DNA from: an uncultured Candidatus Melainabacteria bacterium
GTDB lineage: Bacteria > Cyanobacteriota > Vampirovibrionia > Gastranaerophilales > Gastranaerophilaceae
Direction: 5' to 3'
DNA: 64,000 nucleotides
Assembly: GCA_934692485.1 (NCBI GenBank)
Contig: CAKUTX010000003.1
Coordinates: 178,653 to 242,652, forward strand
The notes beneath the pieces were generated by a model. It was given only the letters and a program-made list of their open reading frames with translations, ran no database searches and was not told the DNA's origin. Positions 2,300-57,236 of this stretch are shown here, piece by piece. The translations under genes and the position numbers were made by a program. Position 1 is the stretch's first letter, and every line of letters begins with the position of its first letter.

Positions 2300-2974
2300 T
2301 TAATATTTCATTTCCCAATCATCATCAACAATTACATTAAAACAATGAGCAGCTTGGGGAACACCGTGTGCCATTCTATATCCGGAAGCACTCTTACATT
2401 TTTCAATAGGTGTTGACGCACTATGAGAGCTATGAGAACTGTGAGAACTGCCTGCATCGCTTGAAACAGCATTTGATAAAGTACCATTTATATCAATACC
2501 CGCTGCAAATAAATCTCTACCAATAGTATTAGGGCCTTTCTTTCCGTTTACGTCAATAGTTAAAACTCCTGACGTATTATCAAAATCACCTGAAATAGCT
2601 GCGCCACTAGGCAATAAATAAGCTGAATAATCACTAAAATCAGGGTTTGCGGCTTCGCCATTAATATTTTTGTAACTTGGAGCAAAACAATCAGATGCAC
2701 TGCTGCAATCCTTTGCGATTTTCATATTTGCTTTTATCATATCATTTAATGTAGATTTATTGACAACTCCTGCCTCGCGCAAATTCAACGCATTTTTAGA
2801 ATTTATATAATTCAACGTCGCCTGTTGAAATTCACTATTTACTTTACGCAACTGAGTTGTATAAGTCTTTTTTTGAGTATTTTGAATCATTGTCGGCATT
2901 GTCAAAACTGCAACAACACCTATTATCCCCAATGAAATAAGAATTTCTGCCATAGTGAATGCATTTTGCTTCAT
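2300..2974 (-). CDS. prepilin-like protein (type IV pilin/pseudopilin family) with Ser-His repeat
   Basis: This 224-residue protein has a four-residue leader (MKQN), then AFTMAEILISLGIIGVV, the prepilin peptidase recognition and N-terminal hydrophobic helix, with Glu at +5. Residue -1 is Ala or Asn rather than the usual Gly. The globular part contains IDVNGKKGPN and GRDLF, a motif shared with other pilin-like genes here and reminiscent of the Ca-binding loop of major pseudopilins. A (SSH)3-type repeat, encoded by a 9-bp tandem repeat (about 2420-2449), precedes a Cys-rich C-terminus. It probably builds a pilus or type II secretion-like filament. Monocistronic. Confidence 0.85.
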   Translation of the reverse strand: MKQNAFTMAEILISLGIIGVVAVLTMPTMIQNTQKKTYTTQLRKVNSEFQQATLNYINSKNALNLREAGVVNKSTLNDMIKANMKIAKDCSSASDCFAPSYKNINGEAANPDFSDYSAYLLPSGAAISGDFDNTSGVLTIDVNGKKGPNTIGRDLFAAGIDINGTLSNAVSSDAGSSHSSHSSHSASTPIEKCKSASGYRMAHGVPQAAHCFNVIVDDDWEMKY

Positions 2975-6285: not shown

Positions 6286-7056
6286 CTAATCATTATTTGG
6301 ACTCAGCTTTTCTTTTCCAGATAAAATATTATTTAATGTTTCTCCACCTGATTTAGACCAAGTACTTGGAGCTACTCTATCTTTATAGATATATATTAAA
6401 AAAACATCTTGACCAAATCTATTTGGTAATGTTGGACCATTTACATCAATACATAACTCAGCACAATAATATTTATTTACTTGAACTAAAGTTTCTTGTC
6501 CTTTTTCATTATAATAAGAGTCAATACGGTGTACCTCACATCCTGAGTGTAAACTCTGTACTACAATAATAGAACCATCATTAAGAATTATTTTTGGGTT
6601 ATTAGTGCTCCAATCCCGAGTGTTTCCGTTTGCGTCATAATTTGGTTTTGCGTACTTAATATCGTAATAAAAATTAGGACATTCTATTTTTGATTTGCAG
6701 ACTTTGGCTCCACTAAAATATTTTGCAAAATTTTCTGTAACTTTGTAATGTCCATCGGCTGCATTAAATAAAACACTATTATCTCCAATAAAGTCATTAT
6801 CTTTTTGTGCCATTATAGTTGCATTATAAATATTGGAATAAGTTCTTTTAGTTTTAGCTATCAGTTCCTTCTCTCTATAATTTGCAATCAAACTAGGCAA
6901 AGTAATCGCCGCAACAACACCAATTATACCCAAAGTTATCAAAACTTCGGCGAGGGTAAAGGCGGCTAGGCGGTTTGAGGCTTTGCCCCCTCTCTTTTGG
7001 CTACTTTCTGCGCCTCGCGATAAACGGCACCGTTCGCAATCACAACGAAAACTCAA
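6286..7056 (-). CDS. prepilin-like protein with repeat-derived leader, possibly phase-variable
   Basis: From the first in-frame start (a poorly supported TTG) the product is 256 residues. RLAAFTLAEVLITLGIIGVVAA marks the prepilin cleavage site and helix, and IDVNG, LPNRFGQDVF mark the shared pilin C-terminal motif. The coding frame stays open upstream through a GC-rich repeat to a G10 tract at 7250-7259. A well-placed ATG (7284-7286, preceded by AAGGAAG) lies just beyond the tract but out of frame by one base. With 11 or 8 G residues that ATG would read straight into the pilin. The real gene therefore probably starts at 7286 and is switched off in this sequence, unless the tract length is an assembly error. 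Confidence 0.75.
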   Translation of the reverse strand: MSFRCDCERCRLSRGAESSQKRGGKASNRLAAFTLAEVLITLGIIGVVAAITLPSLIANYREKELIAKTKRTYSNIYNATIMAQKDNDFIGDNSVLFNAADGHYKVTENFAKYFSGAKVCKSKIECPNFYYDIKYAKPNYDANGNTRDWSTNNPKIILNDGSIIVVQSLHSGCEVHRIDSYYNEKGQETLVQVNKYYCAELCIDVNGPTLPNRFGQDVFLIYIYKDRVAPSTWSKSGGETLNNILSGKEKLSPNND

Positions 7057-7286
7057 CGTTTCCGTTGATTCTTGCTCACCTCTCGCTCCGCTCGTGCCTC
7101 TGCTCGGCTTGCTCTCCCATTCAGGGGCGAGGGAACAAGTTTCGTCACAGTGGGCTACGTGCGTGGCACCTTCACCCTCTGCTCCTGCTACACAATGACA
7201 TACATTTACGTCTACCTCAATCCCTCTATAAACTAAGGCTCCGCGATTGCCCCCCCCCCGAGAGCTCTTCTTAAATCTTGTTTCAT
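7057..7286 (-). other. repeat-derived leader segment with G10 phase-variation tract and upstream start codon
   Basis: On the minus strand an ATG at 7286-7284 (SD AAGGAAG at 7293-7299) starts a short reading frame, ATG AAA CAA GAT TTA..., that enters a run of ten G (7259-7250) and in the present sequence stops at TAG 7235-7233. Adding one G or removing two removes that stop and gives an open frame through the GC-rich segment into the pilin gene. The segment encodes ATHVA, DETCSLAP, APEWESKPS and, just inside the downstream gene, ERCRLSRGA, all of which recur in the leader of the pilin gene at 37185. Confidence 0.7.
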
Positions 7287-7329
7287 CTCATTCTTCCTTT
7301 CAAATATACGGCATATCCATTTTACCATA

Positions 7330-28119: not shown

Positions 28120-28839
28120 CTAAAAATTAACAGGATAATCTTTTGGGATTTTCCAACCACTATATTCAATTAAAGCTGCACAATAACTCCTTCCATAAGT
28201 AGGAATTTCTTTTGTACAAGCAACCTGATAAGACATACCGCTTTGAGTTTGCCCTAAAAGGGTAGTGCGCTTCCCATCCCATTGCCATTTATACGTTTCT
28301 AAACCTTTATTATTCATGTAATATTCTGACGAATTAGGGTTGAAAATAAATGCAAAATACTTTCTACCACTACATTCTAATGGATTGTCCATTGCATAAC
28401 ATTTCTCATAATCTCTTGCTTCCGGAAAAAACAGCCATCCACCAGCGTCAAATTGAGCCAAACTACCATCTGGAAAGTATAATAATCCTAAATTTTTGTT
28501 AAATGTATTATCTCCAACAGAAACTTTAAAGACTAATAAATATTTTGCCAAATATTTGTTATACCAATCAATAGGACTCAATCCACCATTTGTAACAATT
28601 TCTCCATCAACCTCAATATTACTTCCCATTTTGTCCCAATGCAATTTATTGCCATTATCAATTTCTGATTGTGCAATGGCTTGGTTCATAACAGAATAAA
28701 ACTTTTCTAATCTTGTTTCAACAACATGCTTTCTGTAATTAGACATTAGAGTTGGAATAGTTAATGCAACAACAACACCGATTATACCAAGAGTAATTAA
28801 AACTTCTGCAAGAGTAAATGCAAAACGCTTTATTTTCAT
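28120..28839 (-). CDS. prepilin-like protein
   Basis: This 239-residue protein begins MKIKRFAFTLAEVLITLGIIGVV with Glu +5 and hydrophobic helix; the six-residue leader is short and basic. The ATG at 28839 is chosen because AAAGGAT sits 7 bases upstream; longer in-frame starts would add an irrelevant hydrophobic stretch. The C-terminal region lacks the IDVNG motif and instead has Cys-rich ECSGRKYFAF and YGRSYCAALIEYSGW, so it is a different pilin subtype. Divergent from the XRE regulator at 28907, with a CTAGT-ACTAG inverted repeat between them. Confidence 0.85.
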   Translation of the reverse strand: MKIKRFAFTLAEVLITLGIIGVVVALTIPTLMSNYRKHVVETRLEKFYSVMNQAIAQSEIDNGNKLHWDKMGSNIEVDGEIVTNGGLSPIDWYNKYLAKYLLVFKVSVGDNTFNKNLGLLYFPDGSLAQFDAGGWLFFPEARDYEKCYAMDNPLECSGRKYFAFIFNPNSSEYYMNNKGLETYKWQWDGKRTTLLGQTQSGMSYQVACTKEIPTYGRSYCAALIEYSGWKIPKDYPVNF

Positions 28840-28858
28840 ATTATATCCTTTCTTTTTG

Positions 28859-28871
28859 CTAGTCACACTAG
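28859..28871. promoter_or_regulatory. candidate XRE operator (CTAGT-N3-ACTAG)
   Basis: CTAGTCACACTAG is a perfect inverted repeat between the divergent pilin and XRE genes, followed at 28884-28893 by GCTAGTATAA that could be the -10 region of the regulator. Autoregulation and control of the pilin gene are inferences. Confidence 0.45.
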
Positions 28872-28906
28872 TTGTAATAAATGCTAGTATAACTAACAAT
28901 TTAAAA

Positions 28907-29122
28907 ATGGACAAGGAATATTTACAAAAATTTGCAAATAATCTAAAAAAGCTACGAAAAGAAAAGGGCTTAACTCAGGATGATTTGGCTGTTTCAGAGC
29001 AAATCTCCAGATCAATGATTAGTCTGATAGAAATAGCCAAAACCGACCTAACCGTTTCAAAAGTTAAAATTATTGCAGATACATTAAAAGTTCACCCGAA
29101 AGAATTATTTGACTTTGACTAG
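28907..29122 (+). CDS. small XRE-family helix-turn-helix regulator
   Basis: This 71-residue HTH_3 protein has [30 protein letters not shown], the helix-turn-helix, and [19 protein letters not shown]. The ATG at 28907 gives a compact domain with no extra sequence. It is divergent from the pilin-like gene at 28120-28839 and convergent with prfB (the 3' ends overlap by four bases). DNA-binding helix residues differ from those of the XRE at 36779, so targets probably differ. Confidence 0.82.
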
Positions 29123-37045: not shown

Positions 37046-37184
37046 ATACGGAATTATATTTCATGTTTATAGAAAAATATGTCATTAAATAAGAAATATA
37101 TTGCCTTTACATAAAAGTATATCTTGAAAAAACAGAAATAATAGTTTATTATGAGAAGTAATACATCAAATTTGGAGAAACGAT

Positions 37185-38387
37185 ATGGATAAAATTCATC
37201 AAAAAATCAATGCTACGCACATAGCCCCTGAATGGGAGAGCAAGCCGAGCGAAACTTGTTCCCTCGCCCCTCGTAGGGAGAGCGGATTTGCGTACGGACG
37301 GAGCGAAACTTGTTCCCTCGCCCCTCGTAGGGAGAGCGGATTTGCGTACGGACGGAACGAAGTGAGTCCGGATAGCGAACAGATTGAGCATGTTATTGCG
37401 GAGCAATTTATGCGAAACTCTGTGAGCGTGGAGCAAATCCAAGACGGGCTAGGGAGAGGGGGCCAAGACGAACGTTGCCGTTTAACGCGAGGCGCAGACA
37501 AGCCGAGCAGAGGTCAAGAACTATACCCTCGCCCCTTTGTGGGAGAGGGTGTCCGAAGGACGGGTGAGGGGTCCCATCCCGATAAGATTGCGCAACAAGT
37601 GCGCAATGACAGTGTTAGTTCCCTCGCCCCTCGAGGGAGAGGGTTAGGGAGAGGGGGCCAAGTAGCTTTTACATTGGCGGAAGTCCTAATCACTCTTGGC
37701 ATAATCGGTGTTGTTGCAGCGATTACGTTGCCGAGCTTGATACAAAACTACCAAAAGAAAGCACTTGCGACACAGACACAAAAGTTTTATTCAATGATGT
37801 CACAAGCTGTGAAACAATATATGGCAGATTATGGAGTAGATGACTTGCGCAACACCCCTCTTGCCAGTGATAATTATGAAGATTCCGAGTCTCCTGAAGC
37901 TATGGCTTCTATTCGAGATTTTGCAACTAAATACTTAAAAGTTGTTCGCGAATGTGAAGATATTGAAATTGATGATGGAATTCATGATAGTTCTTGTTTT
38001 GCGCCTGTATATAGAAGGTGGGATAATTCAATATATGAATACCACCCTATGGAATTTGATTATGTACTAGCTGATGGTAGTACCATTTCTATATTTTATT
38101 ATGGAAATAAAGAGACTCCAGGTCCAATTGATTTATATGTAGATGTAAATGGTAAAAAAGGTCCAAATAGATTTGGTTATGATTATTGGGCAATGAGTAT
38201 ATTTTATGATGGAGTTATTGATGAAGGAACAGTTACTCCTGAATGTCGAAAAGAAGGGGATTGTATAGATTATGGAGATACTCCATCGGAAATTAGAGAA
38301 TATAAATTTGAAAATACTTGTAAATCTGGGCACTACGGTGGTTGTTTTGGTCACTTGTTAGAAAACGGCTTCAAATTCGATTACTAA
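37185..38387 (+). CDS. prepilin-like protein with long repeat-encoded leader
   Basis: The open frame is 400 residues. GGAG lies before the ATG. Residues 1-10 (MDKIHQKINA) look like a normal start, but the prepilin motif VAFTLAEVLITLGIIGVVAA begins only near residue 162. The intervening 150 residues come from GC-rich repeat DNA, including an exact 54-bp in-frame duplication (SETCSLAPRRESGFAYGR twice) and modules shared with the leader of the pilin at 6286. Normal leaders here are four to six residues, so the insert either blocks or alters processing. The rest has VDVNGKKGPNRFGYDYW and paired cysteines typical of these pilins. Confidence 0.8.
   Translation: MDKIHQKINATHIAPEWESKPSETCSLAPRRESGFAYGRSETCSLAPRRESGFAYGRNEVSPDSEQIEHVIAEQFMRNSVSVEQIQDGLGRGGQDERCRLTRGADKPSRGQELYPRPFVGEGVRRTGEGSHPDKIAQQVRNDSVSSLAPRGRGLGRGGQVAFTLAEVLITLGIIGVVAAITLPSLIQNYQKKALATQTQKFYSMMSQAVKQYMADYGVDDLRNTPLASDNYEDSESPEAMASIRDFATKYLKVVRECEDIEIDDGIHDSSCFAPVYRRWDNSIYEYHPMEFDYVLADGSTISIFYYGNKETPGPIDLYVDVNGKKGPNRFGYDYWAMSIFYDGVIDEGTVTPECRKEGDCIDYGDTPSEIREYKFENTCKSGHYGGCFGHLLENGFKFDY
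37200..37670 (+). repeat. GC-rich modular repeat block inside pilin 5' coding region
   Basis: About 470 bp that is clearly richer in GC than its surroundings. It contains direct repeats (54 bp at 37248-37355; GGGAGAGGGGGCCAAG twice), partial palindromes with CCCTCGCCCC / GGGGCGAGGG-like character, and modules shared with 7023-7200. Confidence 0.8.
37248..37355 (+). repeat. 54-bp in-frame tandem duplication
   Basis: Two identical copies (37248-37301 and 37302-37355), each 18 codons, encoding SETCSLAPRRESGFAYGR. The third repetition starts with AACGAAGTG and diverges. Confidence 0.95.
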
Positions 38388-55389: not shown

Positions 55390-56094
55390 CTACTCATTAT
55401 CTATATATCCGTATTTACGGCCATTTGCATCCCATTCAACATTTTCTTTAACAATTCTTGCAGGATTACCGGCAAATACGCAGAAAGACTGTTGCCCCCC
55501 CCCCGAAAAGACTGCTCCACATCCGATTATTGAATTCTTTGGAACAAATGAATTTTTTAAGATAACAACATTTTTACAGAGCCAAGAATGTTCTCCAATA
55601 GTTATACCTTTTACTTTGTTAATTATTTCTTTTGTACCTTTTCTGAATATTGGATGAGCATCCGTATTATAAATAATAACACCAGATGCAAACATACAAT
55701 CTTTTTCAATATCACAATATGTATTACTATTCATTGTCGTATAGTTCATTGATTCAATCTTTGTATTATTTCCAATTTTAAAAGAGCAATTTTTTATTTT
55801 ACCAAAATACGGATTGTTCTGCCCTAACTGAATTCCAACTTGCCTACACGTAAAATCTTCACCAATTTCTATTAATGAATTATCGCAATAACCACATATA
55901 TTCAAACCTTCTAAAATTTTTGCATTTTTATTTATTTTTATTACATTATTTTCGCCATCTATATTAATTTGCAACTTGTTTAAATCAAAATCTTTTGGCA
56001 ATAATAATTTATTTTTTTTCTGAAAAGCCCTTATAACAGAAGTTTTTTTTCTTCTTAATTTATCGATTATTTTTTGCCCTAATCTAAAATGCAT
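55390..56094 (-). CDS. left-handed beta-helix O-/N-acyltransferase with G10 tract
   Basis: This 234-residue hexapeptide acyltransferase ends VPKNSIIGCGAVFSGGGQQSFCVFAGNPARIVKENVEW, with the typical CVFAGNPAR end of sugar acetyltransferases. A run of ten G (55504-55495) encodes the SGGG stretch and the frame is intact with ten. A change of one base would truncate the last part of the enzyme, so expression may be phase-variable. Start set at ATG 56094; a TTG at 56106 overlaps the aminotransferase stop and has no SD. The role is likely acylation of an amino sugar made by the next gene. Confidence 0.82.
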   Translation of the reverse strand: MHFRLGQKIIDKLRRKKTSVIRAFQKKNKLLLPKDFDLNKLQINIDGENNVIKINKNAKILEGLNICGYCDNSLIEIGEDFTCRQVGIQLGQNNPYFGKIKNCSFKIGNNTKIESMNYTTMNSNTYCDIEKDCMFASGVIIYNTDAHPIFRKGTKEIINKVKGITIGEHSWLCKNVVILKNSFVPKNSIIGCGAVFSGGGQQSFCVFAGNPARIVKENVEWDANGRKYGYIDNE

Positions 56095-56099
56095 ATTTT

Positions 56100-57236
56100 T
56101 TACCAACCTCTAAATTTCTCACAAATATATTCAGCTACATTTTTATCCAAACTTCCATAAAATGGCAAACAAAGTACACGTTTTTTTAAATCATCAGTCA
56201 CGCTCAATTTTGACATTTTTACAGTTATATCATTTTTGTAGCAATTATAATCATGACAAGCTGGATAGAAATATTTTCTTGTAAAAATATTTTCTTTCTT
56301 AAACATGTCATATATTTCATCACGATTTTTTTCATATTCATCTTCTATTACAATCGGATAATATTGATAAGAATTTGTTGTATTTTCTGGCATTTGAGGG
56401 ATTTTTATACCTTTTACGTCCTTCAACCCGTTATCATAAATTTCTTTTATGCCTTTTCTACGTTCTTGTTCTTCTTTATATTGTTTTAAATTCAACAACC
56501 CCCAAGCTGCTTGAAATTCGTTCATTTTACCATTGATACCAATATCTTCTACAACTTCTTCGTTTTGAATGCCAAAGTTTCGTAAATTATATATTTTATT
56601 GACGAAGGAATTATCTTTATAAGTTAAACAACCACCTTCAATTGTATTAAACAGTTTTGTAGCATGGAATGAAAACATTGTTATGTCCCCAAAATTGCCA
56701 ATGCCAACTCCATCAATTTCTGTTGAAAACGCGTGAGCTGCATCATATATAACTTTTAAATTATATTTTTTAGCAATTTCATCTATCTTTTTAACATTAC
56801 AAGGAAATCCATAAACATGTACACCTAATATTGCAGATGTGTTTGGAGTAATAAGACTTTCTATTTTATCTGCATCAATAGTCATTGTGTTTGGCTCAAT
56901 ATCGCAAAAAATAGGTTTTAAACCATTCCAAGAAATACAATGCGGTGTTGCCGCAAAAGTAAAAGGTGTTGTAATAACTTCACTTCCACAAGGCAAATCA
57001 AGAGCTTTAATAGCTGTCAAAAGCGCAATTGTTCCATTATTGAATAATTGAGTATGCGGAACTTTTAGTTCTACTTTTAATGCTTCTTCAAGAGCCTTAT
57101 GCTTACTTCCCATATTAGTAAGCCATTTTGAATCGTATATTTCTTTAATTTGTTCGGTAAAATCTTCAATACTTGGCAATAATGGAGATGTTACAAAAAT
57201 CTTAGTACTTCTATTTTTTACAGTTGCTATACTCAT
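56100..57236 (-). CDS. DegT/DnrJ/EryC1/StrS sugar aminotransferase
   Basis: This 378-residue PLP aminotransferase has the FNNGTIALL start, TTPFTFAATPHCI, YDAAHAFST (Asp binding the ring N), and SFHATKLFNTIEGGCL (internal Lys). It probably converts a keto sugar nucleotide to an amino sugar, such as dTDP-4-amino-4,6-dideoxy (viosamine-like) or the 3-amino isomer. First gene of the glycan operon; transcription from an extended -10 promoter near 57306-57311 is likely. Confidence 0.9.
   Translation of the reverse strand: MSIATVKNRSTKIFVTSPLLPSIEDFTEQIKEIYDSKWLTNMGSKHKALEEALKVELKVPHTQLFNNGTIALLTAIKALDLPCGSEVITTPFTFAATPHCISWNGLKPIFCDIEPNTMTIDADKIESLITPNTSAILGVHVYGFPCNVKKIDEIAKKYNLKVIYDAAHAFSTEIDGVGIGNFGDITMFSFHATKLFNTIEGGCLTYKDNSFVNKIYNLRNFGIQNEEVVEDIGINGKMNEFQAAWGLLNLKQYKEEQERRKGIKEIYDNGLKDVKGIKIPQMPENTTNSYQYYPIVIEDEYEKNRDEIYDMFKKENIFTRKYFYPACHDYNCYKNDITVKMSKLSVTDDLKKRVLCLPFYGSLDKNVAEYICEKFRGW

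Follow-up and report, generated by a model that had tools for sequence, protein, structure and literature searches.

Putative phase-variable prepilins with mosaic leaders of in-frame GC-rich repeats in uncultured gut bacteria

Two prepilin genes in the 64,000-nucleotide stretch of DNA analysed here (the window), from a Gastranaerophilales-like bacterium, have long mosaic leaders, and comparison with relatives indicates that they probably belong to a family of phase-variable prepilins whose cleaved leader would serve as a tolerated landing zone for GC-rich repeats that keep the reading frame. In the mechanism we propose from the sequences, the whole region from the start codon to the site of prepilin-peptidase cleavage would take in short GC-rich repeats, and the leader would be translated, stay in the cytoplasm and be cleaved at A|FTLAE. 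Because it would be removed there, its amino-acid sequence would matter little, but the pilin would be lost to any stop or frameshift, so that only open, in-frame repeats would be retained. Leader repeats would be rapidly gained, lost and swapped, probably by recombination among prepilin loci, which number about 100 in several of the relatives. The window gene starting at 7286 and many paralogues have a G10 or C10 about 20-40 nt past the ATG. At ten bases, the usual length, this tract would leave the pilin out of frame, and a change in tract length would turn the gene ON, a translational phase variation with OFF as its default.

Two prepilin genes with mosaic leaders

The window holds four genes with a prepilin motif: one at 37185 (+), one at 6286-7286 (-), and ORFs 2300-2974 (-) and 28120-28914 (-), which have short, ordinary leaders. 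Features of the first two are listed in Table 1. The leader of the 37185 gene is open all the way into FTLAEVLITLGIIGVVAAITLPSLI and contains, for example, the peptide SEQIEHVIAEQFMR. Its 54-bp unit, present twice here, occurs as a single copy in the relatives P0003, P0004, P0005 and P0009. Inspection of the window sequence found no G10 tract in this gene.

Table 1. Features of the two prepilin genes with mosaic leaders, in window coordinates
Feature	Position	Strand	Basis
First gene, prepilin ORF	37185-38387	+	begins ATG
First gene, GGAG resembling a ribosome-binding site, upstream of the ATG at 37185	37174..37177	+	sequence
First gene, open 161-aa mosaic leader, 54% GC	37185..37667	+	sequence
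Tandem duplication, two perfect copies of a 54-bp (18-aa) in-frame unit with ETCSLAPRRESGFAYGR	37247-37300, 37301-37354	+	sequence
112-nt palindrome, SGFAYGR..SPDSEQIEHVIAEQFMRNSVSVEQIQD, with dispersed copies in the family	37334..37445	+	fold and family matches
ERCRLTRGA module, common with 7036-7007 (-)	37469..37498	+	93% across 30 nt, frame shared
GC-rich modules CCCTCGCCCC...GGGAGAGGG and GATTGCGC...GCGCAATGAC, reaching the prepilin motif	37519..37668	+	sequence
First gene, mature prepilin FTLAEVLITLG..., 239 aa	37668..38387	+	TIGR02532; 239/239 identical to mature part of P0009
Second gene, AAGGA resembling a ribosome-binding site	7295..7299	-	sequence
Second gene, ATG (MKQDLRRAL...), out of frame with the pilin at ten Gs	7284..7286	-	sequence
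Second gene, G10 tract with C on either side	7250..7259	-	sequence
Second gene, mosaic leader after the tract, with ATHVA, ETCSLAP, APEWESKPS and KPSRG..CERCRLSRGA modules; 54% GC	6961..7249	-	sequence comparison
Second gene, mature prepilin	6286..6960	-	profile search; 221/224 identical to P0172

In profile searches the mature part of the 37185 protein scores 16.3 bits against TIGR02532, exactly at the cut-off of 16.3, and no match to this profile is listed for the full-length protein (P0001). P0009 and P0172 lie above the cut-off and P0002, at 16.1, just below. PF07963 stays under its cut-off in P0002, P0009 and P0172 and is absent in P0001. In the predicted structure of the 37185 protein the mature part combines a long helix with a beta domain, with weak structural matches, and leader residues 9-64 and 78-157 have pLDDT values below 50; in this model the leader peptide is presumably disordered. 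As RNA, positions 37200-37670 give a better fold than any of 100 shuffles (z -3.3).

The start of the second gene is laid out as AAGGA, ATG, 27 nt and G10. As sequenced, the ATG at 7286 reads into a TAG soon past the tract. The database proteins P0036 and P0039 begin MKQDLR[SN]ALGGGG and continue through into a pilin. The first-pass annotation of this DNA placed the second leader at 7286-6960 with modules that stay open, and after the G10 tract it is indeed open to FTLAE at 6960; the tract itself and the common frameshift register described below were overlooked.

That annotation also noted that the leaders are GC-rich compared with the window and share peptide modules in the prepilin frame. 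Both observations hold. GC content is 54% in both leaders versus 22-39% in 400-base windows clear of them. When the two leaders were compared without gaps (E<=0.1), the result was seven same-strand blocks and no opposite-strand block, and six of the seven are in frame (27, 22, 22, 30, 15 and 14 nt, including APEWESKPS, ETCSLAP and ERCRL[TS]RGA); the sole out-of-frame block is 11 nt long (E 0.03). Several of the six overlap, which leaves about four independent blocks, and by our own estimate the chance of such frame sharing is about 1-4%, so that the window by itself is weak evidence.

Leader turnover and dispersed repeats among relatives

Further comparisons were made in the genomes of relatives (G002, G157 and others) and with database proteins. 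The glycyl-tRNA synthetase beta chain of the window shares 84-86% identity with its counterparts in the closest genomes; one of these, G157, belongs to a genus of 33 genomes. The G002 sample comprises 54 contigs with 1,737,433 bases and contains 93 prepilin sites. The stretch upstream is open for 40 codons or more at 54 of these sites, and for 100 or more at 29. Here a leader is defined as the open stretch upstream of the motif and has zero in-frame stops by construction. A profile search detected the prepilin peptidase PF01478 in 4/4 relatives. Prepilin-motif matches number about 100-130 per ~2 Mb genome in G001, G002, G283, G121, G140 and G344. Members of the genus diverge in this respect, with 8-21 matches in some (G258, G323, G333) and 98-131 in others (G283, G344).

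A protein search with the leader alone retrieved 65 predicted proteins at E<=0.1, a set that is biased to open frames by its leader query. By inspection, 58 of these are prepilins with modules in shuffled order before FTLxE and seven are other proteins. P0001 and P0009 are identical over the mature pilin (239/239) and have leaders of 161 and 132 aa; the P0009 leader has a 3' half unlike that of the 37185 leader. P0002 and P0172 agree in 221/224 pilin residues and P0172 has different leader modules, the called start of P0172 possibly being internal. Relatives of the 37185 gene beginning MDKIHQKI[NS]ATHIA have long leaders and, as judged from the protein starts, no tract near the start.

Among 169 database prepilins with a recognised motif, 134 have Ala and 35 have Gly directly before FTLxE. 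Partial copies of the cleavage motif also lie within several leaders (for example FTLAEGATHVAHFDDIRRAA before FTLAEVLITLG), among them those at C45:4346 and C2:65517 of G002 and in P0022 and P0036; such copies may be an alternative cleavage site or a seed of the ATHVA module.

We found 229 intervals in G002 that resemble leader DNA. Sixty are leaders, 156 are intergenic or in ORFs shorter than 120 codons, and 13 are in further ORFs that reach 120 codons or more; decayed leaders may account for some of the 156. The modules are thus not confined to the region before FTLAE. The first-pass annotation held that repeats common in intergenic DNA in all frames would make the shared frame a matter of chance: the repeats are indeed common there, but the frame sharing is not what chance would give, as shifted leader blocks in G002 overwhelmingly keep the frame (see below).

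Its alternative proposal, a mobile repeat that brings its own frame, proved right in part, in that one module, if not more, is clearly palindromic and is also found within an unrelated gene. This element, at 37334-37445, folds with z -3.77 (0/200 shuffles as good). The RNA folds of four other leader pieces have z values of -0.85, -2.11, -1.02 and -1.25, the first three lying within 37519-37668 and modest, and the stable palindrome holds for the one element only. A 471-base leader query was matched in 135/191 genomes of the family, and among the matches listed most cover query positions 135-246, which correspond to 37334-37445. A relative of the element is inserted in an RsmG-type protein, P0051 (GidB match), and the RsmG counterparts in G157 and G002 are without it. 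Relatives of an SPDSEQIEH...NSVSVEQIQD element occur in other proteins too (P0047, P0050, P0056, P0057, P0059, P0060); the one in P0057 comes after a phage-portal domain match, so phages may spread it.

Turnover of this kind could also be expected if the mosaic leader were mainly a recombination device, its shared modules allowing a 5' cassette of promoter, start, tract and leader to be exchanged among pilin bodies, with the repeats selected for shuffling. Bodies are not closely similar in 69/70 of the pairs whose leaders have a block of 150 nt or more in common at >=92%, and, as in the pairs above, one body can have different leaders. However, the 156 similar intervals outside leaders and longer ORFs, together with the RsmG insertion, argue that spread of the repeats needs no pilins, and the leaders of G157 are short, yet it has 23 prepilin sites in 400 kb. 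We consider selection for shuffling possible, if rather unlikely, as the reason for the mosaic; tolerance of repeats that arrive in frame is the reading that we prefer.

A ten-base tract in a common register

Runs of G or C in G002 number 391 at length five, 38 at six, 4 at seven, 0 at eight, 5 at nine, 52 at ten and 5 at eleven. Over the 33 genomes of the genus, in counts that cover all tracts and not pilin ones alone, 1621 tracts have n=10, 148 n=9 and 150 n=11; four of the 33 genomes are without any ten-long tract. G283 and G344 have many pilins and almost no G10. The G10 tracts of G002 and G157 are preceded by C in 70/70 cases and followed by C[A/G] in 69/70. The surrounding consensus TC-G10-CA.TT...AGC is similar for tracts that read as G (29) and as C (23) in the coding strand, a further 20 tracts being unassigned, and no run of 4 to 8 Gs followed by the downstream motif was seen in G002 and G157.

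The tract lies within the open leader of 40/93 G002 prepilin sites and in 26/29 leaders of at least 100 aa. A ribosome-binding site and an ATG are found upstream of the tract in all 40 tract leaders. The ATG-tract distance in the genes examined is 19-38 nt, with one of 72. Among the 53 tractless sites, 24 are without a start having the SD motifs used.

The tract prepilins share a single register. The window, G002 and part of G157 together hold 57 with a recognised start; 56 of them would be in frame at n=2 mod 3, and the tract is ten long in 52 of the 57. In further loci from other genomes the register is n=2 mod 3 in 19/19. The combined count is 75/77, which includes as an exception C15:35092 in G002, a prepilin-type gene that the motif search missed and that is in frame at ten Gs. 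Since the ATG-tract distance varies, the common register was not copied from one spacing.

G157 is poor in the 110-base element. In 400 kb of this genome the tract is present at 18/23 prepilin sites, where the open stretches measure 13-58 aa, and 13/14 tract sites with a recognised start are in the common register. Short tract leaders in an element-poor genome suggest that the older state was a tract-bearing short leader and that repeats were added later, between the tract and FTLAE.

An extension of the phase-variation proposal, which we put forward tentatively and rate as unlikely, would make C-G10-C[A/G] a portable switch of fixed length, copied in either orientation beside start codons. 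A dedicated process would keep its length, nearly all tract-bearing pilins would sit one base out of frame, and each cell would make a few random pilins, with the leader as an open-frame buffer for repeat accumulation and recombination.

The nearly fixed length, the single register and the conserved flanks would also suit a tract that acts by programmed frameshifting or transcriptional slippage, giving steady low expression of every pilin with no switch in the DNA. Ribosomes or RNA polymerase would presumably handle a G-run in the coding strand differently from a C-run, however, and both occur. Tract lengths differing by one base are found among prepilin paralogues, P0008 and P0014 have a common leader start with four versus three Gly codons, and read-through versions (P0036, P0039) exist in databases. 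For these reasons slippage appears doubtful to us, and distinctly unlikely as the general mode of expression. Under phase variation, one register and the proportion of 9-11 G tracts at eleven (150/1919, about 8%) predict that a handful of the ~40 tract-bearing pilins would be ON in each cell.

Reading frame and constraint in leaders

Shifted leader blocks mostly keep the frame. Ungapped leader-leader matches in G002 number 1325, 342 at equal and 983 at unequal distance from FTLAE, and 890/983 of the shifted blocks are in frame while 93 are out. Of the distinct shifts between leader blocks, 188/237 are multiples of three. Frame is therefore conserved in this relative, a point that the first-pass annotation had proposed checking. 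Gapped comparison gave 2467 same-strand versus 68 opposite-strand matches, and 2150/2467 start in the same frame. Most gaps in these alignments are of a single base (1408/2228), with no enrichment for multiples of three; we tentatively ascribe this to noise in the alignments and to shifts that compensate each other. Best matches in the gapped comparison retain the net frame in 100/156 leader-leader versus 87/177 leader-outside cases, so that the contrast is weaker there.

In leaders the first, second and third codon positions have nearly equal shares of the mismatches (4278, 4808 and 5360; 29.6/33.3/37.1%), and in mature pilins very unequal ones (9163, 3215 and 30715; 21.3/7.5/71.3%). The leader behaves like DNA that has to remain readable, with a sequence that is almost unconstrained. 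In-frame stops occur in 24/11150 aligned codons of other leaders versus 123/8065 in outside copies, about sevenfold more, and 118/156 leader matches versus 58/177 outside matches are open when read through.

These data bear on whether the leader could instead be an untranslated 5' region or decayed DNA, with the pilin starting near FTLAE and the openness stemming from duplication and stop-poor repeats. Module copies outside leaders are stop-poor too (1.5%), an in-frame internal ATG is present in 26/40 tract leaders of G002, gene callers place the start inside the leader in many database relatives, and gapped leader-leader alignments keep net frame just moderately better than others. Against this stand the in-frame placement of shifted blocks, the excess of stops in outside copies, the 6.1-8.8% of stops in the other frames of leader DNA, and the start signals: an internal start with an SD is found in 5/40 tract leaders, compared with all 40 for the start before the tract. 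We therefore think it quite improbable that the leaders are untranslated. The suggestion of selection for translated leaders made in the first-pass annotation thus finds partial support, from the start and register evidence, from frame keeping and from the lower frequency of stops than in outside copies. A leader peptide with a function of its own (chaperone, targeting or regulatory) is very improbable: open stretches reach 322 aa in G002 and the RNA fold of 37200-37670 could point to a regulatory role, but substitutions are nearly even across codon positions, the structural model is mostly of low confidence, and modules are freely gained and lost.

Comparison with known systems

As described in an excerpt of PMC4471445, bacterial type IV prepilin leaders are 6-26 aa long and, archaea excepted, invariably end in Gly, and the leader peptide stays in the cytoplasm and is cleaved there. 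The genes studied here resemble type IV prepilins with a class III signal peptide (TIGR02532 / PF07963) in the F-T-L-x-E motif, the long hydrophobic helix and the presence of the peptidase in relatives. The 37185 leader, with 161 aa and a final Ala, falls outside the length range and the Gly rule of that excerpt.

Homopolymer tracts close to the start are associated with translational phase variation, as for Neisseria pilC in the part of PMC5320596 that treats it. As in pilC, where that account has a poly-G by the start codon set the reading frame, a frame-setting 5' tract is present in the 7286 gene and at 40/93 G002 sites; the 37185 gene has none. Unlike in pilC, the tracts are in the pilin genes themselves, number dozens per genome and place G or C in the coding strand. 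They are also nearly always ten long, with C flanks and one register, where the same account of PMC5320596 gives 9 to 15 for pilC.

Rickettsia palindromic elements (RPE) are short palindromes inserted in frame in unrelated protein genes, according to an excerpt of PMC10969869. The 37334-37445 element is like them in its stable palindrome and in the in-frame insertion of its relative in an unrelated gene (RsmG, P0051), a likeness by description. In contrast to RPE, the elements here concentrate in prepilin leaders, with several modules per leader. They also resemble REP and MITE-type intergenic repeats in being dispersed, GC-rich and present in many copies outside longer ORFs, and differ from these in that the copies in leaders are frame-filtered. 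In searches of the open-licence PMC literature, we recognised no description of a prepilin leader of this type. Each component belongs to a known kind; what is new to us is how they are combined, together with the near-fixed, one-register C-G10-C element.

The leaders appear to be coding DNA selected for translatability and hardly for content, a natural case of selfish repeats turning coding. The data suggest that the pilin repertoire of uncultured gut bacteria can be very large and in part phase-variable, with about 100 prepilin-motif matches per 2-Mb genome. A common surface-protein family thus seems to pair an on/off switch with a shuffled leader that needs readability alone.

A second G10 with C flanks lies in the window at 55495-55504 (-), in the 3' part of ORF 55390-56106. 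This ORF has a weak hexapeptide-transferase match and adjoins DegT aminotransferase and radical SAM genes. Each of the three tract lengths tried terminates shortly afterwards, at 209-234 aa, and the tract may possibly provide C-terminal variation of a surface-sugar gene.
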